A stretch of 64,000 nucleotides of DNA from Antedon bifida (lineage: Eukaryota; Echinodermata; Crinoidea; Comatulida; Antedonidae), in the NCBI GenBank assembly GCA_963402885.1, contig OY727094.1:10914501-10978500 (forward strand), written 5' to 3'. A program made the position numbers and the translations under genes. A model generated the notes under the pieces. The model saw only the letters and a list, made by a program, of their open reading frames with translations. It did no database searches and was not told the DNA's origin. How positions within the stretch are numbered: the stretch's first letter is position 1; the number at the start of each line of letters is the position of its first letter. Below, piece by piece: positions 16,045-63,705 of the stretch.

Positions 16045-16238
16045 AAAGGTGGCAATCCTGTTCACAAGACATATACACAAGATGCTCTACATAAACAAAG
16101 TCTTATTACAAGTCTTTCTTGGGAGTGGAGTTGTAATTTGTCATTAAAAAAATGCTGACATATGACAGGACTTGAACCCAGGACCCTTGAATTGGTAGTT
16201 AAGCATCATAACCACCAAGCCACAACTCCACTCCAAAA
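16045..16238 (-). mobile_element. tRNA-derived SINE, family 2 (reverse copy)
   Basis: The reverse complement shows the same A box, B box (GGGTTCAAGTCCTG) and body as the 39996-40250 element but lacks the final tail. It lies between the divergent genes A and B. Confidence 0.7.
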
Positions 16239-16546: not shown

Positions 16547-18248
16547 TAAATCTAAATCATATTATCAAATAATAACATAATATCTCAGAAAAATGAGAAA
16601 TCTACGCTGTTTAAAATTTGTAACGCTTTTAACTTTTACCACCTAATCGTGTACTTTTTATTATCGTTTTATTTTGTTAGTTTTACAGTTTCGTCTTTTG
16701 TTAAAGCATAAACGTATTATACAATGGAAGAGTTAAATTAAGTTAACTCTTCTCTGATTAATAGTATGAAACGCCATGTGTGCCAAAATATTTATCTTTT
16801 TACCAATGTGAAGTCAAATCGCCGTCTAGAACCTTGACTAGAATATCTGCCATGATTATAGGGATTGTGCTGTAAGTAACTGGTGTGACTGACGATGACA
16901 ATGGAGATGTGATAAATGGAAGAGCAACGGCAATAATGATGCTGATGTATTAATAATGTTGATGATAAAGGCAACGAGAGAACAAACTAGGTGTTAGACG
17001 GAGTTTTTACTTATACTGGTAAAAAGATAAACATGCTGGAACACATCGCGTTTTATACGTATTATACTTATTAAGATTTTACAGACAAAAATCAAAACGC
17101 CGACTGGTGTACTAACATAAAAAAAGACTATAAACTCTCTACGAGAGAACGTGAAATGTTGATGATGTTTGTTGACAATATACACGACGACAGTAATATA
17201 TGTACGGCCGATTCATGGTGATACTGAATAAGATTAAGACACGACGATATTTTAGTCATTCTGATGATTCTAATTTGTTTCCCTTAGATATGCTGTCTTG
17301 GTTGGTGATGATAATTGTTATACATTCTATTTTTGGTAATTTAATTCTATTTAATAATCATCTGGGGTTGAATTTTCTTTTATTTTAAAGCAAATTAAGT
17401 GTAAACACTTTTCATACAATATATTAGGTAGGCATATACAGAAAATAACAATATAAGTTTAGCCGTTGAGGGATGCCTATTAAAGACATTGTCTCATAAA
17501 CGTTAAAATGGTATATAGTATACACATTTCCATCATAAAAAAGGATAACATAACTTATTAATTATAATCCAACCATTGTTGAGAACGATCTTTATTTCAT
17601 ATGAAATGTATATAATGTATACTGATTTAAGAAACAAAACGATAAATTCATGTTTACCTTTTTATTAACAAGCAATGGCCATGTTTATTATATTCAAACA
17701 CAAACTTCGTTTATTTACGAAAATATTTCTTTGCTTTTAAAGGAAGAAATAATTACTGTATCCTAATTTATAATAAATTGTCGTATATATGTCATATACA
17801 GGTTTTACAGGTTTTGTAGTTTTGCCATCTAGTTATTTGATATTTTCGCGCCGCTCCTTTTTAGGCAGTTGTATTGAAGAGGACGGAAGAATTAGGAAAC
17901 TGTATCACGCGAAAGCTAATAGTACTATAGCTTGACAGGAATGGACATTTGTAAACTCGAACTGGTGATGCTCATAAGTGTACTGCTTTTGGTTGGCCAC
18001 TGATTTATTAAGCCTGAGGAAATTAACACTTTGAAGAGAGATTGGAATGTGCCATTCATATCTAAGCGTTTATTATATAGTAGGCCTACTGACTTACAAA
18101 AATAATTTATAATAAATCATTATTTCTTAAATTATTAAATATGATATCAATTTTTTTTAATAATTTAATGATAAAAGAACAATAATTAAAACTGTTATGT
18201 CAAAAAGTCGAGTGGCGTTTGTAAGAAATATTTCTTGTTTATTTATAG

Positions 18249-18581
18249 AAACACATTGTCAATTGGTGACAACATCTGACCAGGAAGCCAAGGAAGGTGA
18301 TGCTGAAATCAGGATACCTTGTGATTATTCGCAACTTACTTATACACCTGTTGCAATTCAATGGGATGAAATAAATGAAGATGAGAAAATAATTCAACTT
18401 GGCATTGTTAATGATAAGAAGATAACAAATGGCCGATTTGAATTAAGTGAAACACTTGGGAAAGCAGACTTGGTGATGTCACAACCAACCAGATCTGACT
18501 CTCAACGAATATTTCAGTGCCAGATACAAACATCGAGTGGAACCATTCGAAGATCAAATCCATCTATTGTAACTGTATATT
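18249..18581 (+). CDS. Gene B exon: V-type Ig domain nearly identical to that of gene A
   Basis: A 333-nt exon, the same length as in gene A, with cysteines in IRIPCDYS and RIFQCQI and tryptophan in AIQWDEI. Similarity to gene A continues past the GTGAGC donor into the intron for about 20 bases. The match is far closer than expected from the other exons of these two genes, as expected after gene conversion or recent exon exchange. Confidence 0.82.
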
Positions 18582-29861: not shown

Positions 29862-31873
29862 ATGATCTCCATTCTTAATTTCTTCTCCATTTTTCCCTAT
29901 CAATACCGGCGATGATGGCTTAGGATAGCCTTTTGCAGTACATGTTGCAAAATCATCTTCGGATGTAAACGTAACAGCAATATCTTTAAAAAAAATGCTA
30001 TTGATCGCATCGATAGCATAATATACCATTAGGTATGTTACAGCTAAATGTCACTGATTGACCTTTGTAGATAGTGCTTGATGAAGCATTAAGAACTGGT
30101 TTATCTAAGTCTGACAATTTTCATAAAATGCACGAATACACTCTCAGGAAAGCGAACAAAATCCGATTTCAATTTTCTACCTACTTAATAATTTGAGAAT
30201 CTAAAGATTCTCCCCAGTCGGAAAACATGTAGTCCTTCAGTATTTCTCCTGTATTTTGTGGCAAAATCATAAATACTATTAACAATGTTAAATTATTAAT
30301 ATTTAATAGCATGATGTAATTGCATGTATGTTACTACTATGTAAAGCTTAAATACATAATACAATTTTATGTGAAATAAAAATAATAAAGATAACTGTAA
30401 ATAAATGTGTGTTTCTTGGAGTTAGTCCTATTATATTGGTTTTTTAAAGAGGCTTTTAAAGGTAACTTGACGGACATTAAAACGTGCTTTAATTCACGTT
30501 TGTTTATGTAATTGAGTAAAATGGGCTTAAGACCGATTTTTTATTGATTTTTATAACTCACAATATACAGTTAGATTAGCAGTATTTAATCTTTTAGTGG
30601 TTCCATTTCTTTTTGTATCTGGCATTGAAATATTCGTTGAGAGTCAGATCTGTTTGACTGTGACATCAGCAAGTCAGATGTCTCGTTTATAAATTCAAAA
30701 AGACCACTTTTTGTGTTGTTATCATTTACAAAGCCAGGTGTATTTATGATAACTCCTTTTTCATTTAGTTCATCCCATTGTATGCACCAGGTGTAGTAGA
30801 AGTCAGTTGTGAAAAGTCACAAGGTATCCTTACTTCAGCATCCCCTTCCGTGGCTTCCTGGTTTGAAGTTGTCACCAAATGACCCTGTGCTTCTGTAATC
30901 AGATGATGGAGTTTACAAAAAACATCCATCACATAATCTCCATACATCCAGTAGACCTTGAGTTTAGATAATGTTTTCTGTATGCATAATGCTAGATAGA
31001 AAATACTCACATTTAACTGTAGACAACATTTGAATACAATAGTGTAACTGTATGATGATCTGTATGAATTTGAAATGTGACATGTATGCCTATATTATAA
31101 TCAATGGGTAATTGAATTGAAAATCACACAAATTGTATTAACGTACTGTCAGACAACGTTATACCATTATTATATATTTTACAAGACGACTGCTAAATCA
31201 GGGGTTAAATTAAGTGGAGAACGACAAAAAAATAAAATAGGTGTTGATGCATTTAGATAAGACTGATATTATTCTGATGAGAATGGTCTTTTATGAAGAA
31301 TGTTTCGCTCTAAAACTATGAGTAGGCCTAATTTTAGACGATAAGCCAATTGCTGCAACTCACCCAAGAACATACTAAACCAAACATGTTTTGACTGAAT
31401 TGAGTATTTGAGAATTTATATTGTATAATTTTAAAATATATTTTTTAATTGGAAATTAGTACACTAATATAAGAAAAAATAAACTGAAAAAAAATCTTTA
31501 AATTGCATAAAGACTAACCTGTTTTATCCAGTAATACTACTAGTAAATATACAGCTACAAAAGACTGAAAAAATGCCAATATACTAAAACAAAAAACCTC
31601 AGCTTTGCTAAGATAGGACTGGGGCGAACTACCACTGTATTGTATAATCAAAAACAAAATCGAAACCCTTTTTTAATTTTGTGATCTCCTAAAAGTAGTA
31701 GGCCCTATAGGCTATAACTTAATAGTTGTAGCGTATGCAAAGCCACCAAAATCACTCGGTTGTTGTTTTTTTCTCGATATTCTCTCTATGTTCCTCTCAA
31801 AATATACAAAAATCATAAAGCTGGAAATTCTTAGGTTATGCCTACTACTAGCCGTTCTGTTTATTCCAAACAT
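29862..31873 (-). pseudogene. Gene C: truncated pseudogene of the Ig receptor family
   Basis: Remnants in transcript order: 31873-31835 (MFGINRTASSRHN, equal to exon 1, but its GT donor has become CT), 31564-31519 (signal core SFVAVYLLVVLLD, 12 nt shorter than in A/D), 30892-30562 (V-type Ig), 30110-30043 (start of Ig2, ends after VTFSCN) and 29983-29862 (start of Ig3). The V-type exon has two frameshifts, one near 30787 before the tryptophan and one near 30608 after the second cysteine. No transmembrane or tail exon was found downstream. Four independent lesions make it a pseudogene. Confidence 0.85.
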
Positions 31874-34504: not shown

Positions 34505-37167
34505 CTAAGTAGAAATCATCTGTAGTCCAATGTTATAACCTTTTGTTTTTGAACCATATCTATAAACGCACACTATTCCCACAGGTTTTTCTATCCAATT
34601 TGTTGCATAAGCTAGGTCCGATTCTTCTGCATTAACTAGACCTAGTGGGCAAAACTGAGACCAGTGTTTACAACCATCTTCACTTAAGTAAAGAGAAAGA
34701 CACTTTTCAGTTGTTTCATTCCCATGACTTGTCATTGCTATTTGGTAGAAACCATCTGTTCTTGTTGTTCGTACAATGCCACCCTAGACATTAAAGAAAG
34801 ATATTATTGTTTATATTTAAATTACAAAAAAGTAGATAGGCCTAGATTTTGTTACTTAAGAAATAACATTGTAACAAGAAATACATACTGGAATATTGTT
34901 GGGTATGCCTAGCTGGCATTTTGGATGTGCTTCTGACGGATCTTCACTCCTCGCATCAAGTTGTCCACATCCTTCATTGCTGATACACTGCATACAGTCA
35001 TTCAATGAGCAGATAAAGTAGATGACTTCTTTGTTTTTTATTTCAAATTTAACAATCTAATGAAATAATGTGTTTGCATATCAAACAAGGTTTTACACCA
35101 AATCTTTGATGAAATAGAACACACTTTTTTGTATGATATGATTATTACCTGTGTGTGATTTCCTAAGGTACTATCTAGTGATTTAACAGCAGTTACAATA
35201 TTCCAGGTACGACCATCATCAGTACTTTTCATTACAAATACCTTTTCTGCAACAACAATTTGTCATAACAATTTCAATACAGTTTTATCATTCCCATTCT
35301 TTAACATTACTGACACTTTACTTTGGCAAGTTGTCTTACTTTCATTATTCTCTAGTTTCCAACATGCAACAACCAATTCGTTCGAATTTACGCACACACA
35401 TTTTTTAATCGCTAAAAAACAAAATAAAATAGTATAGTTAGGTACAAAATTTGCTAAAAATGTTACACCATACTGCTTTGCATGCATTACTATTTTCTAG
35501 TGCATATACATTTACTTCAGTAAAACAATATCATTTTACAATATCTTTCACAATAAACCATATATGAAGAAATTAGTAAAATATATTACACGTACCACTG
35601 TAGTTGGAAAGTTGTTCTGGTTGCATCATTAATTGTGACAAAGCATAATACTCGTAAATTACCTAGCAGAACTAACAACTGTTATACAAACCAAATTATA
35701 CTGACTATAAATGCCTGTCAAATCAACTTTTACATCATATGGTCCTTTCCAACTGTTTCCACTGTCATTAGTTGTCATCCTTATTATCTTCCTCTCCTTG
35801 GTGTTATTATCTTGACTAATACACATTAAAATCGCGATTCCATCTTCCTTACTTGTCACAATTGGTACTAGATTTGGAATGCTTTGCAGTAAATAGTAAA
35901 TATATATTATTTTTAAATGTATTAAGAACCATCACTGTAATTTTATAAAGGTTATTAATTTAGAATAATTTCTCAAAGGTAGTTTATATAATTAAAATGT
36001 TAATAATTGTAAATATCAGTTTGTTTGTATTGCTGTATAAATAATTATCAAAAATTGTCAATTAGCCCAGGTTGGTCAACATATTTCAGACTTTATTGAT
36101 TTACTATAATACTTTATAATACCTTGCATCTTCTTCTTTCACAATCACTTGTGGATGTTGCCATTGTATCCGACTCTCGTCGATAAGTGTTCCCCTGCGC
36201 ATTACTACTGAGTTGTTTTGTTCACAAAAGACAAGACAATTATTGTTAATATAAATAACAGCTGGTTTCCTGAAAAACAAGAACATTTTCTTACCAAAAA
36301 AAAAAACAGTTTTGAAAAACAAAATTATGAGATTAATAATTTGTATATGAATCTCCCACATTACATAGACAATTAAAACAAAACTATTGGGATTTTTAAA
36401 AGATAGCAGATTGTAAAATCTCAACAAAATTGAGAAATTGAGGGAGAATTAAATAATATAACGGTTATGCTAGCTATCTGGAATCTAGTTTAATTCCGAA
36501 TTGTCATAACATAAAATAAATGACTAATATAGTATCTAAACAAGTTTAACTATGAATAAAATACTTATTATTTATTGACAGGCAGCCCCTTGAACTAGTG
36601 TAATACAACATTTGACAAAACATGGACAATCAGATTTATTTACATATTCTACAGGCTCTTTGCCTACATGAAACAGTTCCAAAACGATTATAAAAATTTA
36701 TTCCGAGTTTTGTAGATACGTTTAGAGGCAATTTATAGGCATGGGAAATTATTTTTCAACCAATCAAATTGTTTTTGTGACTAAAACAATGGGACACGAC
36801 CAATATGTTGCGAAACATCGCTGTTATCTTAATCAGCTACAATTGTTGCTTTTACAGTACGTCGAATATATTCATGTTAATAATTATTCCTTTTTGTGAT
36901 CCTTAGAATATTTATTGCTAGTACTTTGCAATGTAATCATAACAGCACAACAAATGATTTATTTCAAATTCAACGTGTCCTTGACAAATGTATTATAAAC
37001 AATCTTTCTTTCTTCCCAAGGATAACCTCCATTTTAACATTTCCTTTTTTAAAACTATGATTAAAGTTTTATTCAAAGCTATTATTAAGATGATACCAGT
37101 TTAAACAGATATTTTATTTAAATTTACCTGTAAATGTTTCCTGGTTCAATATCAGTGAAGACATTCC
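34505..37167 (-). CDS. Gene E: sialidase (NEU/GH33-type) domain, probably catalytically inactive
   Basis: Eight exons encode about 345 residues with the hallmarks of a six-bladed sialidase. These are an N-terminal arginine motif (IYRKPAVIYIN), the QW strand after VMRRGT, a PNLVP strand, three Asp boxes (TNDSGNSW, STDDGRTW, SEDGCKHW) and the C-terminal SDLAY/VCVYRYG region. Overall order matches animal NEU enzymes. Compared with them, the first arginine is kept. The acid-base aspartate loop between LVFCEQ and NNSVVMRRG is deleted, glutamate stands where the nucleophilic tyrosine precedes SDL (NAEESDL), and the second and third arginines are not at their expected places (FICS; TTEKCLSLYL). A lectin-like pseudoenzyme is inferred. 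Introns of about 71 and 75 nt explain an apparent stop at 35263-35265. Confidence 0.78.
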
Positions 37168-40100
37168 CTGTAAAAAAAAGAAAACAATATTTATAATAGG
37201 TTCAATATTCTTATTTGTACCATAAATGATTTGTTTTGATAATGTACTGTAGAGCCTAATGTCAAAGGAAAATATCTTTTAATATTACAGGACACTTTTG
37301 TTTTCTTTAATTTTAATTCTAAAAAGCAAAACAAACAAACAAAGTATTGTCTTGAAACTATTTGGTATTTATAACAGTTTTTCCAGAAATATTTGGTTTC
37401 AAGAAGATTATGAACATCCGTATTTTAGGTACATTCAATCTATGTATAAGAAAACCTTTAATGTCTTTACACGTTAGCATTTAGTAAACATTTTCGTAAC
37501 TAGTATTTATATTTTTAATTGAAGTTTTTAAAAGGAATATATGCTTACTGTTTATAACTTTTTATAATTATACCGTATGTACCGTACAATACTACTGAAA
37601 AGCGAAGCTCCGTAAACCATGGGTCGCGGCCCGAAGTTGGGCTGTGTATGCACAACACAATTTGTATCTGTCAATTGCGGCTACTTGTATAAATTGTGTT
37701 TGGTTATATCTAACCTGGACTACTTAGTGCATATTGTGATATCATGAATACTCGTTATTTAATTTGTATAACACAATCAATCTATGCATAATTGGCATTT
37801 GCATAGTTGGTACACATAACTAATGATTACTCTTCAGTAATTCTATTGCATTATATTTTACTAACACTTCAACAACTTACAGGCTACAAAATAGGCTTGT
37901 GGGCCGCAGCTTGAGAAATTGAAAAGTACAAACAACGTTAAAGTTTTAGTGATGTCATAAGTACCTTTATTTTTAACGTAAAACGCAGCTTACAAGAAAC
38001 AGTGAAGTGTCGAGACGATGAATTTTTTTAGATTCAGATTATCTGGTCGAACACATGATGATATTGAAGGGCGAAAACGAAATTACATGCATTATATGTT
38101 AATAGTTATGGCAATTTAATTTAATATCTTACGGTTTCTAACACGACACAGTGACGATATCATGTGCGTTATAAAGGAGAAAAGCTAGATTGTGCTGATT
38201 TCCTATTTCACATTGGTCAGGAAATCAGCGCAATGTTTACCCTCCAAATAAAAACAATACAAATGCCATTTTTGGAGACGTATAGACGATATTCTTAAAC
38301 CATGGTTGTGGCTAAGGTATATTTACTTCATTATGTTGGTCAATGGTATAGCTGGATGACCGGGTCACGACTTGAACCCGAGAACCGTATTTTAGTCCGT
38401 AAAATAAAAAGCGTCAGAAAGTATTTGTGGATGTGTTAACTTGATTTAAATTATTATCATAATGAAAAAGCTATAACAATATACTTACATGGTGCATACA
38501 GATTTGCTGTTATTTCATGAGTTATGTTCTTCTTACGCAGATTACATATGTACACTCCAGCATCAGTTAAAACTACCTTCTTAAATTCTAACCGTGTTTC
38601 ATTAAGACCAATAGTTCCTTTGTTTGCTTCTTCTACCTGTTTTATCCTCTGCATTGATTCACTAGAAGACCTTATCAATTCCTTTCCATCAACAGTCTTC
38701 TTATACCAACGAACAACAATATCTTTATCACTTTCATATTTGCACGTTAAAACAGCATTTTCTCCAGGTGTTGTAAAACAATCATCCATGTCTTTGAAAA
38801 AATATGTAACAAATGAGAGAATAGCAAGGAAAGTAGTCACTGTTAGCTATGTAGTAGAATTATTAGAATAGATGCAAATAAACAATGTTGTATTACTCCA
38901 CTTCATTTAAAAAACAGCCTTACACTTGATTAAAGTGGGAAATACTATACAGTATATAAGATTCAACTAGACATACATTTTCACTAGATGGAGAATCTAA
39001 AAAACTATTTTTCCTCAAATAATTAGGTATTTTTAAACAAAAGAGCGGGACAATCCAAGAAACCCGTAGCTCGTCTGATGCCCTTAACCAACGGACAAAA
39101 AGACAAGAAATTAAATATGATTAGTACTTGCATTTGGAAGATGGATAGATAGCATACACAGACATGACCTACTCATTGTGATAGGAGATGAAAATGAAGG
39201 GTATGGAGATGTAATGAAGAAACATGGCATTGGAAGAAAGAAGCGAAAATAAAGAAAAACTTGTCGACGGTTGCGGACGAAACAGCTTAAAAGTGATAAC
39301 TGGTACAATCTTTTCACATCGAAATATACACAAATACATCTGGAAATACACAGGAGGAGTGAAAAACATCCACAATAGATCATAAAAAAATCAATCAGTA
39401 AGCAACAAAGTTCATCGATAAGAGAGTTGCTGACATCGCAAGTGACCATCTAAATCGTACGCAAATTCAATTGAAACTAAAAAGTAAGCATTAGCACAGA
39501 AGTAACAGGATTACGTTTGACACTAATGAGCTTGAACATTCTGAGAGGAGCAGACAGTCGGTGAGGAAGACGTTGGGGAAAGAAATGGAGTAACAGTATA
39601 ACTGCATACAAGGAAACTGGAAAAGAAGTACTTGGCTACAAGATGCAATAACAAAAGCAAAGCATAACTAAGTACTCGTGGAAGAGAAAATTGATTGTCT
39701 TGTCTGGAATAATGGAAAATTGAGACAACAGGAAATTGAATATCTTTCAATTCAAATGCTTTAAGAAGAATCTTGAAGATCAGATGTTGTGTTTAACATA
39801 GAAATAATTAGCAAAACTAAAGTTAAAATAATTAGTGATGAAGTGTAAATAAGAATGTATGTAGAAGTAGCTAGATAGGCAATGTTCTGACAATAAATTG
39901 TATAAAATAAATAAATTTAATTGTATGCCCGCATTATCATGGATACCGGAAGGGTCGACCCAAAACAACCTGGAAAGAGATCATGTAATGAAGCGGAGTT
40001 GTGGCTTGGTGGTTATGATGCTTGGCTACCACTCCAAGGGTCCTGGGTTCAAGTCCCGTCACATGTCAGGATTTTTTCTAAGGACCTAATTACTCCACTC

Positions 40101-43100
40101 CCAAAGACTTGTAATAAGACTTTGTTTATGTAGAGCATCTTGTGTATATGTTTGTCTTGTGAACCTCTGAGGGTCCCTAATGATCAGCAATAGCTGGATG
40201 GATCACCCTCATTAAATATGGTTTTAAAAAAAAATAAATAAAAAAAAAATAAAGAAATAAATAAACAGAAGCTAGAAAAAGATCTGATTGGAGATAACAC
40301 GTTGTAGCCTTATGGAACACTCGGCCCAAAGAGGATAGGTAGGTATAACACATTGTATGCAAATAGATAATCAGGTGTAATTAGAAAATAACAAATTGAT
40401 TTGTTTAAAAAAAGAGAGTTTAATTGCATCTTGTTTTAATGTTAAAAAGGCAAAAGCTCTTTAAATTATACTTACCTCGTACATACAAATTTGCTATGAT
40501 TCCATGCGTTACTTTCTCAATCTTGCCCTCTACAGATGTCATATTCTTACTCAGTTCACAGATGTACTCTCCTGCATCATCAAAAGTTACCTTTTCAAAC
40601 TCTAAAGTTGATTTTGTACTGTCAAAGGTTGCTTTGTATCTTCCCTGTATTCTTGTTGCCATATTTGATTCATCAGAAGACCACATAAATTTCTTTACAT
40701 CGAAAGTCTTTTTATACCAATTAACAGCAATCTCTTTATCCTCACTTTCATACTTGCAAGTTAAAACAGCCTTTCCTCCAGATTTTAGAAAACAATCATT
40801 CATGTCTTTAAAAAGTAATAAATTCAATTTTTTTTTAAACGAAATACCTGTTTTCTGCTGCATAACGCTGATTTGAAAATAGATTAAAAAATGTTTGCTA
40901 AATTTGTGCTCATAAAAAAGTGTTTCAATCATCAGTGAGTGGCAATAAACGAAAGAAACGTTAACAATACCCAATATGCAATGCGCTTAGTAGGCGGTCA
41001 AATATTTTTCTAGTTGTTATGCTACTAGAAAATGTAGGTGAATTTATGAAAACAGTAATTATAAATAGGTGTTTTTTGGCAGCAAAAATAACAGGATTAA
41101 GTGGATAAACTATTTATCATTACTTAAATGTTTGTCGTTGTACAGAAGGAGCAAAATTATAGAGTAATACACTTATCAACGTTAAGATAATATTCCATAC
41201 ATTCAATTTGTCTAAAAATAATTAACATCAATTAAGAATGCAGTAATATGGTATATTCAACAAACATGGAGATATAAAATAAGTACTTCCATAGTTGAAT
41301 TAAACCAAAACTTGTCACAAGATGTAACTGGATAGTGTTTCAATTTGTTGTTCAGGTGTTGCTAATGTTTGCTAATATTTCTTAATACTCTTTCATGGTA
41401 AATTTGCTCATGTAGGTTATTTAACTTGGCATTATATACTTACAGCCCAGATCTACAACTTTTAAATTGCAGTTTGCCAAGTAAACAATATCCTTTTTAT
41501 CTGTCACACATTTGAGGCGGTAGTCACCAGCATCAGAATGTTCAACTTTTGAAATTGTAAGATAGCCTTTCAGTGTTGCTGTATCAAAATGTACACACAA
41601 TCTGCCAGAACATTTTGAACTTCCAACTTTCTTCCATTTCCCGGATTCAAATTTTTCAAAAATAACTTCATCAATATGTGGAGGATTTGACAACATATAA
41701 AAAGGAATGATAGCGTCTTCTGCTAAACAAATTATACGTTTTTCCCTTGTAAATAATGCATCTAAAACAACAAACAAATGCCATGTACGTTAAATATGTA
41801 TAAGTATCTGTAAATATCAATGGTATTATTCTAAAAAGAATTAACAAATATAAATATCTTATTGTTTATTGTAAGTACTTCAACACTTTACTATTTTAAT
41901 AAAACCATGATTTGTTTCTACAATATATATTAAAACACGTACGAAAACTGAATTTGCAAAATAGACTAGACCAAGACGATTTTAAATTGAACATTTGATG
42001 TTAAGCCCAAAGAACCTATTGGGGAACACCACTGGCTGGCCTTGCGCAAGTTCTTGCCTTTTAAGAGATCCAAAATGCATACGTGTTAAATTAGAGATCC
42101 TGTATTGTATTGAAATGTATTACTTTCCATACTAAACAGATCGCATACCACAACACCACACAGTACATTATGCATAGTATTGTTTGATGTGTGGTGATGT
42201 AGGATGTGCATGGTGTTTGGCAGGACTGCAACCAAGTACTAGATTTGTTTAGCTAGGCATACAAATCAACTGATCAATTACTGTATCATACTGTTTAGGC
42301 CACTAAAGTATACTTTAAAAATTACGAAATAATACCAAAACAAATTTTAATTTAGTATCTAAAATAAATGTTTAAAATAGGAATACTACAGCAAATTTCA
42401 ATGCAAAAGATAAAACATTAGGTTGAGTTAAGCACATTGTTTTACAATGCATATGTATTACACACCATATCCACGTCCCTTGTTTCCCAAATCCGTAACT
42501 GTACAGTGTTAATTAATTATCTAAATAAATTACCTTTAGCTACTACTGCTAGCTTTGTAGAAGCTTTCAGATTTTTTTCTCCTTCAATTGGTTGAATTTC
42601 ACATTGATACGTTCCAGTATCACCAATTATAACATTGTTTTTTTTCTTTAACGAGAGAATGTTATTTTGGTAACATTTAACTTCAAAATTAGGATTTTTA
42701 GAACAATCCTCGATTTCATCTTCTTTAATTTTCTTCCACTTGTAACCTGTTAACGGCATATCTGCTGGTCCATATATGCACTTCATTTCAAAATTATTGA
42801 TACCAAGTGTTGCTGAGTACTCTGGGTTTACCATCTGTATCCCTTTAAAAATATCATGTAAATCATACATTTTGCTGTTATAAATTGTGGTTTAAACGAT
42901 ACATGAACTGAAACCGAGTATAACATAACCCGTTTTCACACAAAAAGATTAAATAAATATAGATGAGATAGTTTTTATATTAATAGTAGATTTATTTGGT
43001 ATATTTTATAGATATAAATGGAAAATCAAAAAGTTAAAACAGATCTTGTTGTTGACCCTTGACATTACTGCAAATAAACACGTCACCATATACAAAATAA

Positions 43101-45773
43101 ACCAAAACCAATCTATCATGGAAATTTAAAATCAATAAAAGGAGGAATGGGAACATGGGTATATACTGGTGTATTTAAAGAAATAAAAGCAGCATCACTC
43201 CTTTATTGCAAATGAGTTCGTTGAAATAGGGAATTTATTATAAGAATGTTAGTCAACTAGTGTAACATAGTAGTACACACTTTCAAGATTTATAGTATAT
43301 TAACATTGGTGTACAAATACCGCTTAAAAAACTAATAAAAAATCTAAAAACACAGCAAGTGGAGGTGGGTGGTGTTCAATTAACATATTATACTGCAACA
43401 TTGCATTGCAACTGATTCCCTCACTGATTTCTTTGTAACAAAAATAGGCATATTACAATTGAAGCAATACATTGGTACAAAAACATGCAAAAGGCAAATC
43501 TGAAAATTCAAATAATAAAACATTCAAAGACATGAATTAAAAAATCAATATTAGCAAATGCTACAATAGTATACAGACCTATCGTTTAAAACAAATTCCT
43601 GGCACTCGTGAGAGAAAACGAAAAAAGTCGGAATAATTTCCTATAATGCTCAGTATCTTTCTTATAAACTGATTTTGTTCCCAAACCTAACCATTTTGTT
43701 ATGCTTCTCTTCGTATGACTATGCATTCATTCAATAAACTAGTAACATCACATCAATATGAAAAATGGATATTTTTATAAATTGTAAGAAAGATTTACTT
43801 GTTAAGATAGATAAAATAAAAAATAAAAAGAAGAAACAATAACACAGACCTCGGAGTGAAAAATAATAAATTAAAATAAAATTTATAAAAACTCACAATA
43901 AACAGATAAACTGCTGTGAACTGGATGTTGCTGTCTACTGCCCTCTATGTTGCAGCTGTACGCCCCTGAATCAGATTTTACAGGATTTTGAACTCTTAGG
44001 CTGATTCTTCCTCTACCATTGGTAAACACTTTAAAAGACAATTTATACACAGGTATGTCACAATCATCTTTTTTATATGCTTTTAATTTAACTAATTATT
44101 TCAAAGTTAATTAAGCAAAAAATAAAATTGACTTGTATATACTATAATATAAATAAGCTTTGAAACTTGATCAATTCTCATCAATCATCTCATCATCAAT
44201 AATGTCATCATCAATTTATAACTGTAAAATTGAAAGAATGTATATTAATGTTACTTACTTGAATATGAAGTTTCAGATCTAAAGAAAAAGAAAAAGTGTA
44301 ATAATAATATTTTTCAGGGAAATATATAAGATTGACTAGGTACATCCATACCATCCACATATCAGAATGTCATACAAGTTTGTTAATTTCTGGATGGTTA
44401 TCGGATGATAAAAAGGTGCAGTTGCGAATGAACCTTTTAGGCATTATGGTTGAAGTACTTAATTTTGAATTACTTTGTATATAAAACCGTTTCAACAATT
44501 CCATGAACTGTTATTTTCACAATAAAATGAAATCATATATCCTGACAGATCCTGAACAGGTAAAAGCCATGTACAAAGAAGCAACCCATTTTAATGATTA
44601 CAAAATCCAGTACAAAAACATTACAAATTCAAGCAGGCAAACTTATACACTACAAAAATATAAGAAACAAGAATATTTAAAGAAAGAACTGCATTTGAAC
44701 GATTGAAATGAAATGTAAAATATACAGGGTATGCTTATACCCAGTGGTGTAATTTTATTAAAACAGTAGCCATGATTTTTATATTATGCTTGTGAAACCA
44801 TTAAGGTATTTATTAGACCTCTTATATTAAATGTACCCTGTTAAAACAAGTTTAATAATTTTATAATCTCTTCTAGCTACTGAAAAAATTATATAGATAA
44901 TAATTTGCAAAGCCGCAGTGCTTTGATAAAAGAAATAAAAAATCAAGTTTAGAGTTAAAAATGCCAATTTCAAAGCCGTCTTAAAATGAGCAATTGAAGG
45001 AACCTGACGGATGGATATACGGTAAACCGTATTTTGCGCTATACAACTAATTTAAAACCATTAACCATTAATCAAATATTTCATGTATGTTATGATGTTT
45101 TTCCAAAATAATATCAAATATGTCATTAACGGCCAGTTGCGACCATACATTATAATAATTATCGATCTATAATTTCTCCTGTTTCATATATTTTGTTGTT
45201 GTTATATAATATATATATATAATTGTTATTGTGCTACATGACTATGTTAAAAATTAATAAGCATTTTCTTATCAGTGGGTGGATAGATACAAACAAAAAT
45301 ATTATCAGATGACTAAATATAGGTAATAAAATTTGAATTTTAGCCTACGTTTCTGGTGTTTTTATTCAACTTCAGATTTTTATTTTCATGCTATAGCAAA
45401 CATTATCCATTGTATACCCTACCCATACTTTTTTTTATTGCACTATTTTCATTTTATAGGGTTCTCCGGACATGGGATTACATTGGTTAAACTACCTAAC
45501 TATAAATATAAATAAACGGAACCCTTTAAGAACAGAATTATCATATGTGATAATAAAGTAGAATAGTGAACATTATAGCAGCATAAAAATGAATGTACGT
45601 GTAGCTTAAAACATGAACAAAAACATAAATGTTTTTAAACATTGGTTCAATTGAAGTGATTGTAATGTTGATGAGTAAAGACACCATGTGATTAAGCAAT
45701 TTAAACAAAATAAAATTTGCTGGAAATTGATTTATAATCTACAAACCATTACCTTTGTTCGTCTTTCCCTACA
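34505..45773 (-). CDS. Gene E: multi-Ig protein with C-terminal sialidase-fold domain
   Basis: Exons in transcript order: 45773-45758 (16 nt, tentative), 44280-44261 (20 nt, tentative), 44028-43897 (C-terminal half of an Ig domain), 42842-42534 (Ig), 41761-41444 (Ig), 40805-40476 (Ig), 38791-38489 (Ig), 37167-37128, 36269-36123, 35881-35734, 35662-35596, 35411-35322, 35246-35149, 35056-34889, 34783-34505 (stop TAG). Phases are consistent throughout; all Ig exons end in phase 1, as in the neighbouring receptors, and the first ends LSVYC like the receptor exons (TVYC). No transmembrane segment follows the sialidase fold, so the product is probably secreted, or anchored only if the unseen N-terminus does so. 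The start and signal peptide were not found between 44.3 and 46.6 kb. Confidence 0.75.
38489..44028 (-). CDS. Gene E: tandem Ig domain region
   Basis: Five exons encode Ig units. 44028-43897 holds a half domain (KSDSGAYSCNIEG). 42842-42534 has cysteines in MKCIYG and YQCEIQ with tryptophan in YKWKKI. 41761-41444 has CLAE and RLKCVT and an extra CSGRLC pair. 40805-40476 has LTCKYESE, NWYKK and YICELS. 38791-38489 has LTCKYESD, RWYKK and YICNLR. The last two are recent duplicates of each other: both begin after a shared acceptor with M(N/D)DCF and end IANLYVR or TANLYAP. All are phase 1-1, which allows domain gain and loss by exon duplication. Confidence 0.8.
39110..39600 (+). mobile_element. 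Non-LTR retrotransposon endonuclease relic
   Basis: The plus strand in a gene E intron encodes, across frame changes, LLIVIGDENEGYGDVMKKHG, LVDGCGRNSLKVITGTIF, SHRNIHKYIWKY and RVADIASDHL. These match the C-terminal half of the LINE exonuclease-endonuclease-phosphatase domain (G-D-x-N, then the S-D-H block). Several stops show that it is dead. A SINE follows at 39996. Confidence 0.6.
39996..40250 (+). mobile_element. tRNA-derived SINE, family 2
   Basis: A 5' tRNA-like head carries an A box (TGGCTTGGTGGTTATGATGC) and a B box (GGGTTCAAGTCCCG at 40045-40058). It is followed by a unique body (AGACTTGTAATAAGACTTTG, AGCTGGATGGATCACCCTCA) and an A-rich TAAATAAA tail. The copy at 16238-16045 on the other strand shares head and body, which defines the family inside this window. 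Confidence 0.75.
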
Positions 45774-46029
45774 ACAAAAGAAAACAAGAAACAAAACATA
45801 AACAGTACATTATTGAAACATAGCTATGACATGATAAATAAATATTTTGATAGAATTACAAGTTTAAAGAAATTATGTGTCAAGATTCATTATTTTGCTG
45901 CATAAAATATGATCAATTTAATTTCTTTTTTAGACATTGTTAAAAAAAAAAATTGAAAAAAAATAATAAAAACTTGTAAAATTGACCTAAAAAAAGGAAA
46001 ACATGTATTATGTGGTGTATAGACAGTGT
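44300..46029. other. Region expected to hold the 5' exons of gene E
   Basis: Only a 16-nt candidate exon (45773-45758, acceptor TTTCTTTTGTTGTAG, donor GTAATG) is visible. No signal peptide or N-terminal half of the first Ig domain was recognised on the minus strand. The plus-strand open frames at 44503-44706 and 45333-45515 show no known features. Confidence 0.35.
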
Positions 46030-46470
46030 TCTCTAAAAAGAGTATCTTTGTGTGCATGTTTGGGCTGTGAGAACTTTGTGTACATTTAAAGTAACTAAAA
46101 TGCAGTTTTTCAGATTCCGAGTCAATTATAAATAAGTGTAAAATTCTGCTGCATTTTGCATTAAAAAATGTAAACTGACTGCATTTCTGCTAAATGTGTG
46201 CTCCCAAATAATCATTTAAATTAGTGGTTGGTTATTGACAAAAAGGTTAACATTACCCAAAATGCAATTTTCAAGTTATTTTGGTTTGTTTAAATGCCGT
46301 TCTATCCCTTTGGTGTTTTAACCATTATTGTTTACGCTGCCATTTAACCGGTAAATTAACAATTGTTCCTGTTTCTGCTGCCAAGAAATTAAGGGTAATT
46401 ATTCACACAATTATTAATCGGTTATTGTTTCGCAAGATTATAAGTGGAACATTTAAATATAATATTTTTA
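46030..46470. repeat. Left end of duplicated block (3' flank of gene D)
   Basis: Counterpart of 480-870, with scattered substitutions and small indels. It separates the gene D stop from the poorly defined 5' end of gene E. Confidence 0.7.
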
Positions 46471-46606
46471 TATTGCATACAAATTAAAAGAAAAGAAATA
46501 ATAACAATTATATAATAATTAACAATTTCTGGAAATAAACATATCTGAATCAAGTGAAACAACAATAAAATTAAACAAAAATAAATTATTATTGTGGATA
46601 CAACAA

Positions 46607-47136
46607 CTATATACCTTTCCTGACAAGCTTTCCGTGTGACATTTCCATATATGGTGTTTGCTCCTCATTATCTATTATTCTTCCTGAGGTACTGACTTGT
46701 AAATCAAGATCAGCGTATTGAATCTCTTTCTATGATTTATCATAAACTAATTAAGACATATTCTTAACAAAGTACAAACATATACATACAAATATACACA
46801 AACGTTGCACCAGAAATAAATTATATAAACAAGAAAAGTAGTTAAGGATGTACTGCATAAACTTTATCAGCTTTCAGTTTCTAAAGGACTCAATTGCAAT
46901 ATCATTTTCATTACCATTCTTGCGATTGTTGATATAAGACACAATAGGGATCATATAAACACAATCGCTTGAAAAGGTGTTGGCAATATGTTTGCTTTGT
47001 TTTAGCACATAGGGTGTGTTTAAGTCTTCATACCTAGTAGGGGAAGTGTATTTGTAAACCGTTCATCTAAACAGAGTATTTTTTAAAACTAGAAATACCT
47101 TGGACTTTTCTTCTTCAAGTTCAATCTGTGTTGTTC
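46607..47136 (-). CDS. Gene D: second, terminal ITIM/YMEM cassette
   Basis: Linker 47136-47099 (GTTQIELEEEKSK) and terminal exon 46729-46607. After IQYADL and TPYMEM the exon reads through the old donor into KLVRKGI and a TAG stop at 46609-46607. It shares diagnostic bases with the first D copy (GCTCCTCATTATCTATTATT) rather than with gene A (GCTCTTCATTATCTATTACT). Confidence 0.8.
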
Positions 47137-50100
47137 CTATAGCGGCATAAAAAAGCCAATCAATTAAAAGCCAAAGCAGGATTAAATATATTCAGTGCAT
47201 GGTCAACATTTATGTTAGAAATTAAATTTGCTTTAAAATGCATTTAAAATAGTTTAATAAGTATAAATTCTGACAATTAAAAAAAAATAAATATGTTTTA
47301 ATTATGCGTTCTAAAAACTAAAACAATATTATTTGAAAATAAAATTAGAAATTATGCCACAAAGTTAATACATACATCAGAGCATGAAATATTAAAACAA
47401 ACAAATCAATCCACTCCGTTTTTAAAAATAAAAAATAAAATATGTTAGGTTGATTAAACTGTGCCATATCTAATTGAACACAAAAGTGTGTAGAAGTAGT
47501 TATTCACAAGATTGAGCTGACCATTAAAAACAATGCAATAATTATATACAAAATACATTTGTTCAAAAGGCAGAAAGGTTATTCATGTATTCGAATTTGT
47601 CAGGCTTTTCCTTTGTATTCTGTTCATTTTACAAAATGTAAAACTAAAATTTAAACTTGTTTAAGTTGTCACTATCAGGCCTAATATTTGCAATTCATTT
47701 TAAGCTATTTGGGATGTTGGAAGACTTTTAAAAACATAATTTATATTCATTTTTTAACAAATTTATTTTTGTGTCATAAGAGAGTATGTTGTATTACTTC
47801 TACAATCAAACATTTTGAGAAAATAATAATCTTCCAAAAAAATACTGGTGCAATTCAACAATGATAAGGACTGAGTAAAAAGAAATGATAGAAAATATCT
47901 ATAAATTTTAAAAAGAATTTTATCAACTCAAGTGGTTAGCCAAAATGTACTGTACAAATACAATTTTTTGTATTTCAATTTACTTTTACTTGTAAACTTC
48001 GTATCTCTATTATAATATATATATTATATATATACGTTTAAATTTACTGTAGCTTTATATATAATTATATTTTTTAAAATATTTTTCACTTTAACTTGTA
48101 AATGGGCCATTCTGAAAAGCAGCACTATGTTAGGCCTACTAACAATTCAATTAGCCTAAGTCAAAAGAAGAAAAAAAAATGTTCCTGATAATATGAAATC
48201 CAAACAATAAAAATATCAGTTTATCAAAGCATTATATTCTTCTTTTCTTATGATTTTGAAATAAACACAAAATCAGTGTCTTTAAATTTTAAATACAACC
48301 ATAATACCTTTCCTGACAAGCTTTCCGTGTGACATTTCCATATATGGTGTTTGCTCCTCATTATCTATTATTCTTCCTGAGGTACTGACTTGTAAATCAA
48401 GATCAGCGTATTGAATCTCTTTCTATAATTTATCATAAACTAATTAAGACATATTCCAAATAAATTACGAAAACATATATTTTATCATATAAGCAAAGGA
48501 AGTATCTATGGACTGGAACAACTTTATCGACTTTCAGTTTCACAATTAGTATATACAATAAGTAAATGAACACAATTGCTTTGATAGATGTTGTCTTTCA
48601 CGTGTTTGATTACAAAATAGGATTTACTTTTCTCAATAAGAACAGCCTCCTATCTCCCTTCAAATAAGCATTTTCTAAAAAATGATTAATACCTTGCATT
48701 TTTCTTCTTTGATTATACTATCTGATGTTCCTAGTGGCATAAATATAATAATAATAAAAAAAATTAAAACCAATGAACGCATAGGAATTTAGGATTGATA
48801 TAACAAAAAAAACATTGTGTATGGTACATAAGGTATGTCTGACAAAAACTAAAATCCTTCCAAAACGTTAAAATATAGTTTGGTAAAATTTAAAAAATAT
48901 CAATTAGAACTAACCTATGCAACAAATTAAAGTATAGCTATTATTATACGCAAATAATTATAAGTGAATATACAAAAAAAACTGGGTAAAATAGATTCAC
49001 TGTCAAATTGTTTTCATTATTTTCAAAATGCAATACAAAGGTAATGTGGAAAAAACATGATGATGAGAAAGACTATTTGATGCATATTTGGTCAGTTGGT
49101 TTTGGTTTTGCACTCAATCATAATAAGTAGCCTAATTTAGAAGGATAGGCCTATAATCTACACAAAACGCATTAACGAAGTTTAGATAGACAATAGCAAC
49201 AATGATGGAAACAAATTATATAAATTAATAGACACAGAAGAAATTCTAAACTACCCGGTGATATACTGAAATCGAATTAATTAATTCGAAACGATACAGA
49301 TGAGGAAATCTGTGACTATGAGGAAAAGTCGCCTCGACCGACATTTGAAACCGAATTCTTCTGCTTGATATACAGATGTCTCAACCATTAGATCATGGAA
49401 TTGTTCAAATGTTCAAATATTTTATAAATAATTAATAAATATCACCAGAATATTTTCTGCCACGTTTCACTTGAGCATAAATGACAGGTTTTTCAAATGG
49501 CATCGAAAGACCAGATGGATTGACTACTTCATTCTGTGAAAATGTTTCCATATCGATATTATTACAGTACTGTACTTTAATTAGACGTTATTTTGTGTGG
49601 CCTCTTGTAATGTAGAGATAAAAATATAAAGATAAAATAATGAATTATAATGTCATAAGAATGTAATTATATAATACAAATTTCTACTGAAATTTATAGC
49701 AAGTTTAGACACATGTCATTTGATTTTTTTTTATTATTAATATATGAGAAAACATTAAACTATTAAAGCAATTTCTACGGTGTTTTTACAATGTGAATCA
49801 AAACTTCATAATAAAATATAAATAAATAAAATAAATAAATAAAAATATTATTAGTATGCACATATTGGTAAAATTGCAGATTTTAAAGAAAAAACGAAAG
49901 CTTACTGTATGACTGTTTTCGATATCTCTTCCTTTATTTAAAAAAAACACATAATTTTATATTGATATAATAATCCTGTATTTAAACTATTAAAATTACC
50001 TGGTAATTTAAAAGTATTCACTCATTGAATGAGAAACAATTAAGAAGAAGTCGGGTGGCAAGAAATAAATTGTTTTTATAGAGCATGCTTTCAAATATTG

Positions 50101-53100
50101 TAAAAATAAATGTATAAATTAATATACAACACAACAACGTATTTCTCAGACAGTCCTACAATTTACGAAGCATAATATTGTTACTGTATTTTATCACTAT
50201 ATTAATTGTGGGTGTTGTATTTTTTTTATATATCTGGGGGTATTGATTTGGTTATACATGTTACCATTACACCCACAAAAATAAACGCCTTCCCTGAATA
50301 AACCTTTAAAAAAACAGGCCTCCTGAAGTAAGAAAATACTAAATACATTCAACTCATCAAAACTGATGTATATACTACACTACATTTTACTTCTCCACTA
50401 AACTTTGGAACCTCAGGACAAGTTAAGTAGAAATTTAGAAATTACAAAATGAGTGTACATTATAATTATAAAAGATATCCCCCTCAATAGATAGAGGTTT
50501 TCATTAGTATTCTTTTTATTCTTTCTTTTAAGGTTTTGCATTTTACTATATACTGTACTGTCTGTTTGATTCCCAAACCTCAAAATCATTAAAAGATAAA
50601 CGATATTGGACGGGCAACGACTATGTTTGATTTGTTTAAATTATATATAGAAGTACTAAAGAAACAATATTAGCATTTACCTTTATCGTCTGTACTTTCA
50701 CCAGATGCTTCTTGATGTCTTGCTAGAAGTTTACTATCTTCATTATCATCAGGAATTGTCTTTGAAAAAACAGTGTCAAATCAATGAATAGCTATCACAT
50801 CAACTATGTAATTGTAGTCTAATATTACAACATTTTTTTGCTTCTTTTACTAAAATTAATCGTATAGGAAATCAACATTTACAAAGTCTCCAACCCTTCA
50901 TAAATAGTTTAGGTTGAAATTGATTATCCTGTTGATTACGATCAGGTTACCACATAAATCCAGTTTAGATCCTGTTTTCCACAAGAAAATAAATATTTAC
51001 GGGAATAGAAAATGCCAGCTTATGCCAATACCATCCTGCAAATAATTAAGTTCTTTGAATTTTTCAATTCAATGAAATTTCAAGTTTCACTAGTTTTTAT
51101 TGAATATTATATATGGCGACGTGAAAAAATGCGCAAATAAGAGTCGGGAATGTAGGTACCGTACGGTATGTTTTTTAGCCCAGGAGCGGACGCAGGGGTG
51201 TTGCCCCAGTTGCCAGGACAACACCCTTAATTTCATACTAAATGTTTTTTTGCCACTAAATTAAACTTTAGATCCCATTTCATCATATATATTAACCATT
51301 AACGTTATAGAAGTCCAGGGTTAGAAGAGTCTATATGTAAATTTACTGACTGCAGCGTAAAATTAACCGCGCACAATTTAACGGCGGTCAACGGATTTTT
51401 TATTTTTTTTTCATTTCCCTACGTCCGTAAAATTGGGCCGAATTTCCGTAGTAATTACGGACGTTCTGAACTTTGAAATAACAGTGTTTAATTGCTTCTT
51501 TCTGCAAATTTCGATCATATTTTCTTTTCTGGAGTGTGGTTTAAGCAACACAGTTGTACAGTATGTACAAATGTATTGTACAAATGAATTTGGAATTTAT
51601 GGTTTTGCTGACTTACTCAGCATTTATTTCAAAATAATACAATTCAAAGTTTTGCTCAATATATTTATAGCAGCATCTTCACATGTTTTGTTTAACTTTT
51701 TTAAATTATTAATTTATAGGCCTAGTAAGTATTTTGTATTAATTGATTATAATTGCTAGAATAATATTAATGTATAGAGGGCGTTGAATTGAACGGACGT
51801 TCTGTTTTTTTGGATTGAGTTTCTTGTCGTTAAAATGCTAAAAATTTTATTGGATTTTCAATTCTGTCATATTTTGATGGTAGAATAAGGTCATCAAATG
51901 CTATAACAGCCATTATATGAATTATACTTCATGCGATTGTGAGTATTCACGATTTCGAAGTTAGGCCTTTCGCGCTCAAACGATCTATCAACCGGACAAC
52001 GGTAACCAGGGACGCTATCCGGTTGGTAACGGGCGATCGCAATTCTGATCACAATATTCGATCTTGCCTGGCTATAAGCGATCAATGGCCAATCAGTCGG
52101 AAGTAAACCATGAACGGAGAATATCCGCTGATGCTGAAGATACGGTCCAATCCAACAACAAGTATGTATTGATCAAAATAATGCCAAAGAAAGTAATATG
52201 TATCATGATGACAGACGCACGCATGCTGTGGTGAATGAATTACTATGCTTTATAGTAAATAACATTGGAGTATTTTGACACCTTACATATGATATGTATG
52301 GGGTATTTCTCCCTTGCTGATGTCAAAAAGGCCAAAGAAATACTCTCTATATATGTGGAGGATGAAGAATGTAATGTACATAAAAGATCCAGAAAGATCG
52401 ACATCATGTTAAATGATAATATGTTGACATTCTTTGTTAACTGTAACCTAGCAACACTTCCAACCTTCGTAGCTGCTGACCTATCAAAAATGCCGATAGT
52501 TCCTGTAGACCGTATTGATGCTACTGCACTATACACTGAAATACGAAAGATTAAATATGACGTATTATCCATGCGTGGTGATATAATGCAGGCCGCAGAT
52601 CAACGAGGCGATTTGGCAAAGAAAATTAATGACATAGCAGTTGAACGATCCATTAGAATACCATCTTATAATTATAATCCTGTACCAGACGGCCCAATCG
52701 TTTACTCAAAATGATTATCACTCTTCCTGGAAACAGATTAAAAAATCTAAAACCAACTCAATTGATCAGGGTAAAGGTGAAGATGAAATCTGTGAACAAT
52801 GAGCTAATCATTTTGAATCATTATTTAATTGTATCTCTGATGTTTCCAATGAAAAGTTTGTTAATGATACGTTATATACACATGCATACGACTGTTTATG
52901 TACTAATTCTATGCAAGTTAATGATTTTATTAATAAACTCCCCATGGGTAAATACCCTGGATTTGATGATTTGACAGGCGAACACATTAGGTATGCGAGT
53001 AAGCGAATTTCTGTAGTCCTCAGTATATGCTTTAATGCCATGATATCTCATGGTCATTGACAAATGAGATATCTAAAGTTGTGCTCATACCAATTGTGAA

Positions 53101-56100
53101 ATCTAAAACAGGGGACATTACAAGTAAAGACAACTACCGTCCTATTGCGCTTGCATGCGTGATGTCTAAAGTGTTTGAGTCTGTTTTGATTTATGTGTGG
53201 TGATACACTCGAATCAAATGACCGACAGTATGCGTTTAAAAATTGTCATTCAACTGAAACATGTATTTTTATTCTCAAACAGACAATCGAATTTTATAAT
53301 AGAAATGGTATTTATGCCTGTTTTTTAGATGCCTCCAAAGCATTTGATCGTATTAATCATTGGACACTGTACAAGAAACTGATTAATAGAGGAACCCCCT
53401 TATGTTTAGTTAGAGTTCTTGTGTCTTGGTATACCAACCAAATAATAAAACAACCTTAGTTACGCGGATGATATGGTACTTATTGCAGGGGCATTCCACA
53501 GTATTTTTTTGTTACGGACAGGACATTGAGAATATAACTAGACATATCTTAGAAATAAAAAAGAATACAAGATTCAAAGTAGAATAAATGTATACATATA
53601 TGGCCAATGTTTATTATGAAAGTAAAAAAAAAGTCACCCAATACTCCCATTCATACTGGTCATGTTGCTTTAGATTTAGGTATTGTTCTTTTGTGGATTG
53701 TTATTTTAAATACAGACCACAATGTTATGTGATTAATAAACAACAGTTAACACCTTTGTAAAGTACTTCTCAGCCTACAGTACAAAAACACTTTTTAATT
53801 CTTACAATATTGTCATCACATCCATAAAAAAAATGTCCCATCCGTAACATTCAATAAATTTTGATAGTAATGTTTTTTTAATAAAAAAATACAAGTTTTA
53901 AAAAACTTGTTTAAATCTATTGCAATTTAATATCCTTAGGAGTTGAAAATTAAGATTTAAAATTAGGAATTAAAAAAACAATTTTAAAGCCATTACTTCA
54001 ATAAACACAAGTGAGGAAAAACCCCCAATCGAAATGTCTCAGAAGTAACAATTATGAATTTTGAAATGCAAGTATGAAATTAATAAACAATTTTAATAAA
54101 ATACTTTATTATGAATAATTGGAGCTTACTTTGAAAAAAAAGTAACTGCAGTATATTTATGGGCAAAAATGTTAACAAGATGCATGGTTTTATTATGAAA
54201 TAAAAAGGATTCAAATGATATGTCCCGTCCTTAACAAAAATGTCTGTCCCGTGCTTACGAAAAATGTCAATACATTTTTGAATATGATATTTTCACCAAA
54301 AGTTTCAAAATATTTGTTTATAATGTATTGCATATAGTTTTAAAAGGAGAAAACAAAATATTAAATTGTGGTATCAATACTTTTAACTGAAATGTAAAAA
54401 ACACCATAAAACTACTATTAAAATGTCGCGGATGGGACAATTAAGAATTTTGAAATGTATATGAAATTTAATAAACAAAATATGTGTTATAGAATGCTTG
54501 AATATGTACAATAGGGACATAGAGTAACTATATATGGCAAAAAATGTTCAAAAGATGCATGGTTTGTGAAATAATTAGAATTTAAATGATACGTCCCGTC
54601 CGTAACAAAAATGTCCCGTCCGTAACAATGTATTTTTTAAATATGATATTTTCATCAAAATCTAAAATTTTCAAAAAATTAGTTCATAATATAATGAGAT
54701 CCTCAGGAGGAGAAAATGAAATATCAAGATTTTTGCATCATTACTTTTAAATAAATGTAAAGAAACCGCCTAAAACGTCGCGGACGGGACATTTATGAAT
54801 TTGAAATGGATGTATGAAATTAATAAACAACAAAATTTTAATTAAATACTTGATTATGTATTATTGAGACATAAAGTAACTGTTGAAAAAACAGTAATAA
54901 GATGCATAGTTTATGAAATAAATAGGATTAAAAATGTCCCGTCCGTAACGCCAAATATGACTTTTTATTATTTAATATTCAATAACTTAAAAAATCAATA
55001 TCAAAAAAATAAAAAAAATGTTATTTAATAAACTTCAAGAGTTACATCAAAATCAGTAAATGAATTTTTTAAACCCACGGACCAAATACTGTGGAATGCC
55101 CCTGCACCATCTGCCTCCGCCTTACAACATCTAATTCATATGTGTGAAAAATACTCATTTAACGCATGATATATTGTATAGCAAGAACAAATCTGTATGT
55201 ATTTTATTCTGTCCTACAGTCAGGAAATTGTACTTATTTGAGTCGGAACTTGCCTTTGTTAGAGTTTTTTATAATTACTTGGGTCACACTTTGACACCCG
55301 ATTTGAAAGATGATACGGATATCAAACGACAGTACAGGTAATTGTGCATTAGAGCTAATACACTATGTAGAACTTTCTCAAAATGCTCTAAAAGCAGGAC
55401 AGGCCCATATTGTCACAAAATGTATTTATGAATTTGCTTTTCCTTCATCCAATCTACATGGTAGATGGATGAAGCTATTGTTTTAACCACGTGACTATGT
55501 GGCGTAGGTTTTTTTTTTATATATATCTATATATATATACATCCTCTCCAACCTGCACAACATGCCAAACACCACTTTACGATATAGTTCGTAGAACGAG
55601 CAGATGTGGTTTTCTACAAACATGGTGCTGGCACTGCATGACCTAGGTTTATTAAGGAGCAGGCGTAAGGCATTGTTGAAGCACAACTTTAGTGCTTCCA
55701 TAGATTTTACATTAAAATTTGCCCACAGAGAAGTTATTACAATATGTTTTAAACAAAAAACACTTTATGCTTTTAGAGCATTTTGAGAAAGTTCTACATA
55801 GTGTATTAGCTCTAATGCACAATTACCTGTACTGTTGTTTCCTTTATATTTATAATAATGTACACTAATTTGTTATTGAGCTATGGAGAATTTTTTTTCC
55901 GGAATAAAAGATAAATGAATGAATTACCCTACCGGAAATACCTTCGTCGGGGACTACAACCAACTATCAGTAAACATGTTTCTTTATTTCTTTGTAGTTC
56001 TAAACATTAAAGAAATAGTACCGTAGTTTAATCATAAATTACCTCAGTTTGTCCAGACTTTGTTGATTCTTGCGCAGCGGTATCCTTCGTCTGATTAGGT

Positions 56101-63703: not shown

Positions 63704-63705
63704 AC

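Follow-up and report, generated by a model that had tools for sequence, protein, structure and literature searches.

A predicted secreted immunoglobulin protein with a sialidase-type domain that has lost most catalytic residues, from a locus of the crinoid Antedon bifida

Introduction

Animal sialidases are known as enzymes. In the sialidase of Micromonospora viridifaciens (1EUT), an immunoglobulin (Ig)-like domain adjoins the sialidase domain; compared with the gene described here, that protein is bacterial, is an active enzyme and has the opposite domain order. Six essential residues (Arg21, Asp46, Glu218, Arg237, Arg304 and Tyr334) are reported as completely conserved in animal sialidases, in a paper whose full collection is given as 83 sequences (PMC3431349; this and the papers below are cited in excerpt).

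Parasites and viruses already provide examples of sialidase folds that have given up catalysis and serve as binding heads (PMC5349852, PMC6815108, PMC5504189). CyRPA of Plasmodium has a six-bladed sialidase fold with neither sialidase activity nor catalytic residues, and a purely non-enzymatic role is described for it (PMC5349852). The receptor-binding protein of Sosuga virus serves sialic-acid-independent entry, yet keeps all seven catalytic-site residues (PMC6815108). The inactive trans-sialidase of Trypanosoma cruzi, set apart from the active form by one replacement of Tyr with His, still binds sialic acid and galactose (PMC5504189). In another setting, the fester co-receptors (FcoR) of Botryllus are Ig receptors bearing ITIMs, and their locus also encodes the secreted fuhc-sec (PMC12065747).

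The window analysed here, a stretch of 64,000 nucleotides, contains a gene model, gene E, in which Ig domains precede a sialidase-type domain. Gene E resembles the animal sialidases NEU2-NEU5 (GH33) in being homologous over most of the domain and in its YR-x-P motif, Asp boxes and SDL block, as judged against NEU2 and NEU1 only. Unlike them, it has lost five of the six catalytic residues, carries Ig domains in front and is probably secreted, and its sialidase domain is split over seven or eight coding exons. The likenesses to the other systems do not imply kinship. CyRPA has the six-bladed sialidase fold that is predicted for gene E, without sialidase activity, but has a single Asp box, and the excerpted account mentions no Ig domains (PMC5349852). 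In paramyxoviruses, receptor-binding proteins use a sialidase-type propeller as a binder, as gene E may do, but the Sosuga virus example is viral and retains its seven catalytic-site residues (PMC6815108). The inactive trans-sialidase is also a sialidase relative without activity whose nucleophilic Tyr is replaced, but it carries one change only and keeps sialic-acid and galactose binding (PMC5504189). The Botryllus locus offers the same pairing of invertebrate ITIM Ig receptors with a secreted protein, and the excerpted text mentions no sialidase fold (PMC12065747). Titles and abstract openings among the matches listed for Ig plus sialidase describe no animal protein of this architecture, and those on inactive sialidases and pseudoenzymes describe no Ig-sialidase animal protein. 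As read from this one locus, the architecture appears to be a new combination of known modules.

Gene model

The window is AT-rich (GC 0.255-0.342) and consists of animal-type DNA with long introns. Gene E was modelled on the minus strand at 34505-45799 with 15 exons, 850 codons and a stop codon, GT/AG introns and matching phases; one of the exons (8 nt) was added to keep phase and is doubtful. A short hydrophobic start is followed by a 20-nt exon, half an Ig domain, four whole Ig exons and seven sialidase-type exons (S1-S7).

45753..45799, minus strand: candidate first coding exon, MFCFLFSFVVGKDEQ, ending in phase 2, donor 7.0
45753-45768, minus strand: alternative to the candidate first exon, an internal 16-nt exon after a T-rich stretch, acceptor score 8.0
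44259..44278, minus strand: 20-nt exon, phase 2 to 1, acceptor 6.3, donor 8.9
43897..44091, minus strand: Ig1, half domain (C-terminal), phase 1-1, acceptor only -5.5
42534..42842, minus strand: Ig2 exon, phase 1-1, Ig profile match
41444..41761, minus strand: Ig3 exon, phase 1-1, Ig profile match
40476..40805, minus strand: Ig4 exon, V-set-like, phase 1-1, Ig profile match
38489..38791, minus strand: Ig5 exon, V-set-like, phase 1-1, Ig profile match
37128..37167, minus strand: S1, first sialidase exon, NVFTDIEPGNIY plus part of the YR Arg codon, phase 1 to 2, acceptor 10.2, donor 9.1
36123..36269, minus strand: S2, remainder of YRKP, blade 1, FCEQ, MRRG; acid-base loop absent
35663..35881, minus strand: S3, blade 2, Asp box TNDSGNSW, phase 2 at its end
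35590..35597, minus strand: possible 8-nt microexon between S3 and S4, restoring phase, acceptor 0.3, donor 1.5, uncertain
35340..35411, minus strand: S4, blade 3, phase 1-1
35149..35246, minus strand: S5, Asp box STDDGRTW, phase 1 to 0
34889..35056, minus strand: S6, blade 4, lacking an Arg where Arg237 would be
34505..34783, minus strand: S7, blades 5-6, Asp box SEDGCKHW, NAEESDL (Glu at the Tyr334 position), VYR, stop codon

At about 0.08 stops per codon, 850 stop-free codons would arise with a probability of about 2e-31, a figure that is only rough because the exons were picked for openness; a chance origin of the open frame is excluded. The exon positions that the first-pass annotation had placed on the minus strand agree with this model. 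Its start at 45773 is possibly wrong, the ATG at 45799 being the candidate instead. The peptide beginning at this ATG is hydrophobic and signal-like, and short. The 5' end is ambiguous because the T-rich stretch at the start exon also scores as an acceptor (8.0).

The model departs from that annotation at two further points. Between S3, which closes in phase 2, and S4, which opens in phase 1, there is a mismatch that the annotation did not mention and that breaks the frame unless repaired. Other small exons and, by eye, a donor inside S3 were weighed as repairs, and the 8-nt microexon is the least bad of them; the assembly may just as well contain a base error, S3 may have a weak internal donor, or the frameshift may be real. 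In addition, the first Ig domain lacks its first half. A search for this half upstream in gene E did not find it, returning two candidates with the required phase 2-2 and two Cys-bearing candidates in other phases, the latter pair being left out of the model. The better of the phase 2-2 candidates, an 84-nt hydrophobic exon (44837-44920, minus strand; combined score 9.1) that would precede the 20-nt exon and follow the start exon, outscores several accepted exons; it was left out because it lacks Cys and does not resemble an Ig domain, although it may still belong to the gene. The same scoring placed nine accepted exons at ranks 4th to 182nd of 794 candidates; exon scoring alone thus proves no exon, and the model is carried by homology and phase. 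Downstream, no AATAAA or ATTAAA occurs between the stop codon and 33710, where the nearest stands, about 800 nt away.

The sialidase-type domain

The sialidase piece (338 residues) matches Pfam BNR_2 (PF13088) with an E-value of 4.1e-14 and 53 bits against a cut-off of 31.4, residues 29-292 lying on positions 13-253 of the 277-position profile, which amounts to a near-full domain; BNR_3 stays below its cut-off (17.9 vs 27). Aligned with human NEU2, the piece is identical at 76 of 289 aligned residues, with a score of 163 (Z 11.5); 300 shuffles averaged 53 and reached 113 at best. With the 8-nt exon included, the NEU2 score is 161 (Z 11.3), compared with 143 (Z 7.4) for NEU1. The NEU2 sequence was checked against the solved chain 1snt, and the NEU1 sequence used is near to, not the same as, chain 8du5_A. 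From these Z values (11.3 vs 7.4) the domain looks nearer the NEU2 type than NEU1, the two types compared.

A phmmer search of the domain against the PDB gave no clear relative, only two sequences with E-values of 1.8 and 1.9 that match over the Asp box, which leaves the Pfam match and the alignment with NEU2 as the grounds for homology; that a single-sequence search missed NEU2 also indicates large divergence. An NCBIfam search returned no match. Searching prokaryote and viral contigs with S7 alone gave 29 and 12 pattern matches, respectively, none of them confirmed, as expected for an animal gene. On this sequence evidence the domain is homologous to GH33/NEU sialidases. The YR-x-P motif (YRKP), the Asp boxes TNDSGNSW, STDDGRTW and SEDGCKHW and the SDL block reported by the first-pass annotation are all present. 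Its complete NEU/GH33-like six-bladed domain corresponds to the near-full BNR_2 domain, for which we infer the six blades. AlphaFold models were made of two single exons only, with mean pLDDT of 37.7 and 47.4, too poor for a fold search.

Only one of the six catalytic residues, Arg21 in NEU2 numbering, is kept. The FCEQ-MRRG stretch is too short for the Asp46 loop and has no Asp, and alignment with NEU2 places the deletion of the acid-base loop in S2. Arg237 is absent, the first Arg of S6 coming no earlier than its 36th residue. Arg304 is replaced by Lys or Glu depending on the alignment, and S7 has no Arg within 15 residues of that place. Tyr334 is replaced by Glu, a position anchored by the SDL block (NAEESDL). 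Glu218 is the least certain replacement, aligned with Asp in one alignment and His in the other. For Asp46, Arg237 and Arg304, the needed letter is missing from the local stretch (S2, S6 and S7) whatever the exact alignment. In blade 6, the Glu next to LY on its C-terminal side (NEU2 Glu355 by our own count) is Arg in the second alignment, while Glu39 is kept and Glu111 is aligned with Glu. The earlier claims of lost catalytic residues, namely a missing acid-base loop, Glu at the nucleophilic Tyr position and two of the three sialate-binding arginines out of place, are therefore borne out, with five of the six residues gone and the arginine triad for the sialate carboxylate broken. At a background identity of 26%, at most one of six residues would be kept with a probability of 0.51, so the pocket gives no sign of constraint. 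The domain is almost surely not an enzyme, as far as its residues tell.

Ig domains, gene fusion and secretion

The Ig piece (486 residues) matches Pfam V-set (114.8 bits) and I-set (84.2 bits), both above the curated cut-off and in five stretches each, with the Pfam position known only for the best stretch and the lesser ones known by count. Several phase 1-1 Ig exons had been proposed, and four whole ones and one half-Ig exon are found. Ig4 and Ig5 (38489-40805, minus strand) form an internal duplication with 48% protein identity and 74% DNA identity over 277 bases; beyond this pair and weak general Ig matches, no copies of other gene E parts were found within the window.

The Ig5 exon ends in phase 1 with a good donor (8.7), and S1, which bears the VF...YR beginning of the sialidase domain, starts in phase 1 with the best acceptor scored (10.2). 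Read back from S1 to the nearest stop, its frame has no ATG, and at the thresholds used no hydrophobic start with a donor lies between Ig5 and S1. Given the phase fit and the missing ATG, fusion is the simplest reading, and the Ig and sialidase parts probably belong to one gene, as first annotated; a single transcript would then run across all the exons. The model has no transmembrane-like segment, its best 19-residue hydropathy being 1.32 vs 3.27 for such a segment in neighbouring gene D, which supports the earlier suggestion of a secreted protein as probable. The predicted protein contains eight N-glycosylation sequons and 34 Cys. It has no tail with tyrosine motifs, the model ending after the propeller, and within the window this tail module occurs only at genes A and D.

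Neighbouring genes

Ig genes lie on both sides of gene E. The motifs IQYADL (genes A and D) and VIYAQV (gene D) are ITIM-like.

13928 (candidate start) to 1428 (tail exon), minus strand: gene A, Ig exons and IQYADL tail exons
60662 (Ig exon) to 46613 (tail exon), minus strand: gene D, Ig exons, IQYADL tail exons and a TM-like segment
46613-46729 and 48306-48422 (gene D), 1428-1544 and 2949-3065 (gene A), minus strand: nearly identical tail exons KEIQYADLDLQ...TPYMEM, ITIM-like and cytoplasmic, a tandem pair per gene
about 49415-49560, minus strand: VIYAQV exon of gene D, second ITIM-like motif
18164-20429, plus strand: gene B, Ig exons in common with gene C
30934-29866, minus strand: gene C, broken-looking, Ig exons in common with gene B

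Genes A and D are carried by a large, old segmental duplication (442-13763 / 46005-63983) with about 69-92% identity by blocks, and gene D probably starts beyond the window end. In gene C, one Ig exon (30613-30881, minus strand) is split over two frames and a second matches over 30 residues only; the gene is probably a broken copy or affected by assembly errors, to judge from these exons.

Function of the gene E product

The reading that we consider probable, with considerable room for doubt, is that gene E encodes a secreted Ig protein whose pseudoenzyme sialidase propeller serves as a head for a non-canonical ligand, with a role in immune or self recognition suggested. The product would be a soluble, cysteine-rich and probably glycosylated protein with a C-terminal propeller of the NEU2 type. 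This propeller would no longer cut sialic acid, would probably no longer hold it in the canonical pocket, and may instead bind something else as the head of the molecule, a protein or a glycan held in another way being the likeliest ligand; the Ig domains would act as a stalk or a second binding surface. CyRPA (PMC5349852) and the Sosuga virus protein (PMC6815108) are precedents for such a binder built on a sialidase fold. We infer both the binding function and the immune context; the immune role is suggested solely by the adjoining Ig receptor genes with ITIM-like tails.

The first-pass annotation had proposed a secreted sialic-acid-binding lectin built from an enzyme. Arg21 and Glu39 are kept, Glu111 is aligned with Glu, Lys may replace Arg304, and the inactive trans-sialidase is a lectin (PMC5504189, in excerpt). 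However, two of the three carboxylate-binding arginines are gone, so that the triad is broken, and Asp46, Glu218, Tyr334 and the blade-6 Glu are lost as well; the trypanosome protein, only one Tyr-to-His change from its active form, is a poor precedent (PMC5504189, in excerpt). We regard the lectin as unlikely and find it unsupported, so a propeller for another ligand fits better. On balance, a non-canonical ligand is likelier than sialic acid, and weak anion or sialate binding may persist, since Arg21 is kept and a Lys may stand at 304. That the protein remains an active sialidase or transferase whose active residues have been rearranged is scarcely credible: the overall domain and Asp boxes are kept, but the acid, the nucleophile with its Glu partner and two arginines are missing.

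Other alternatives concern the gene model itself. The S3-S4 phase mismatch, with weak repairs and a frame broken without them, the half Ig1 with its weak acceptor (-5.5), the short start peptide and the nearby broken-looking gene C would suit a decaying gene, or two neighbouring genes, rather than one working protein. We consider this rather unlikely, as 850 codons are otherwise stop-free, S1 lacks an ATG and the Ig5-S1 interval offers no hydrophobic start with a donor at the thresholds used. A further reading, which we hold to be very unlikely, assigns the two small exons at the 5' end to the tail of gene D, the ITIM-type gene upstream, with gene E starting elsewhere or forming an alternative 3' part of gene D. 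Their 1-2-1 phases fit after an ITIM-like exon as well as before Ig1, an acceptor-like site at ~44221 would let gene D end at a stop within a few codons (both unscored), and the acceptor at 45768 scores 8.0; but translation from the ATG at 45799 yields a hydrophobic start in that frame, and Ig domains behind a cytoplasmic tail would be topological nonsense.

A more specific form of the pseudoenzyme reading, quite improbable and offered as speculation, is that the gene E product is a soluble partner of the ITIM-type receptors encoded next to it, acting in immunity or allorecognition as a ligand or an opsonin with the retired sialidase propeller as its recognition head; the literature listed describes no animal recognition molecule of this kind. 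More generally, an animal Ig protein with such a head beside inhibitory-type receptors would mean that hosts made the same conversion as parasites and viruses, and in gene E the change from enzyme to receptor in recognition could be put to the test.

Repeats in the window

A tRNA-like match at 62503-62573 (plus strand) reaches 33.8 bits with the Rfam tRNA model, and ARAGORN found no tRNA; it lies in a repeated element (61240, 62603, 49217, 3775) that is probably a tRNA-derived SINE. Another repeat forms an inverted pair (16060-16235 / 39989-40164) that is 87% identical, with its second copy within the Ig4-Ig5 intron of gene E.
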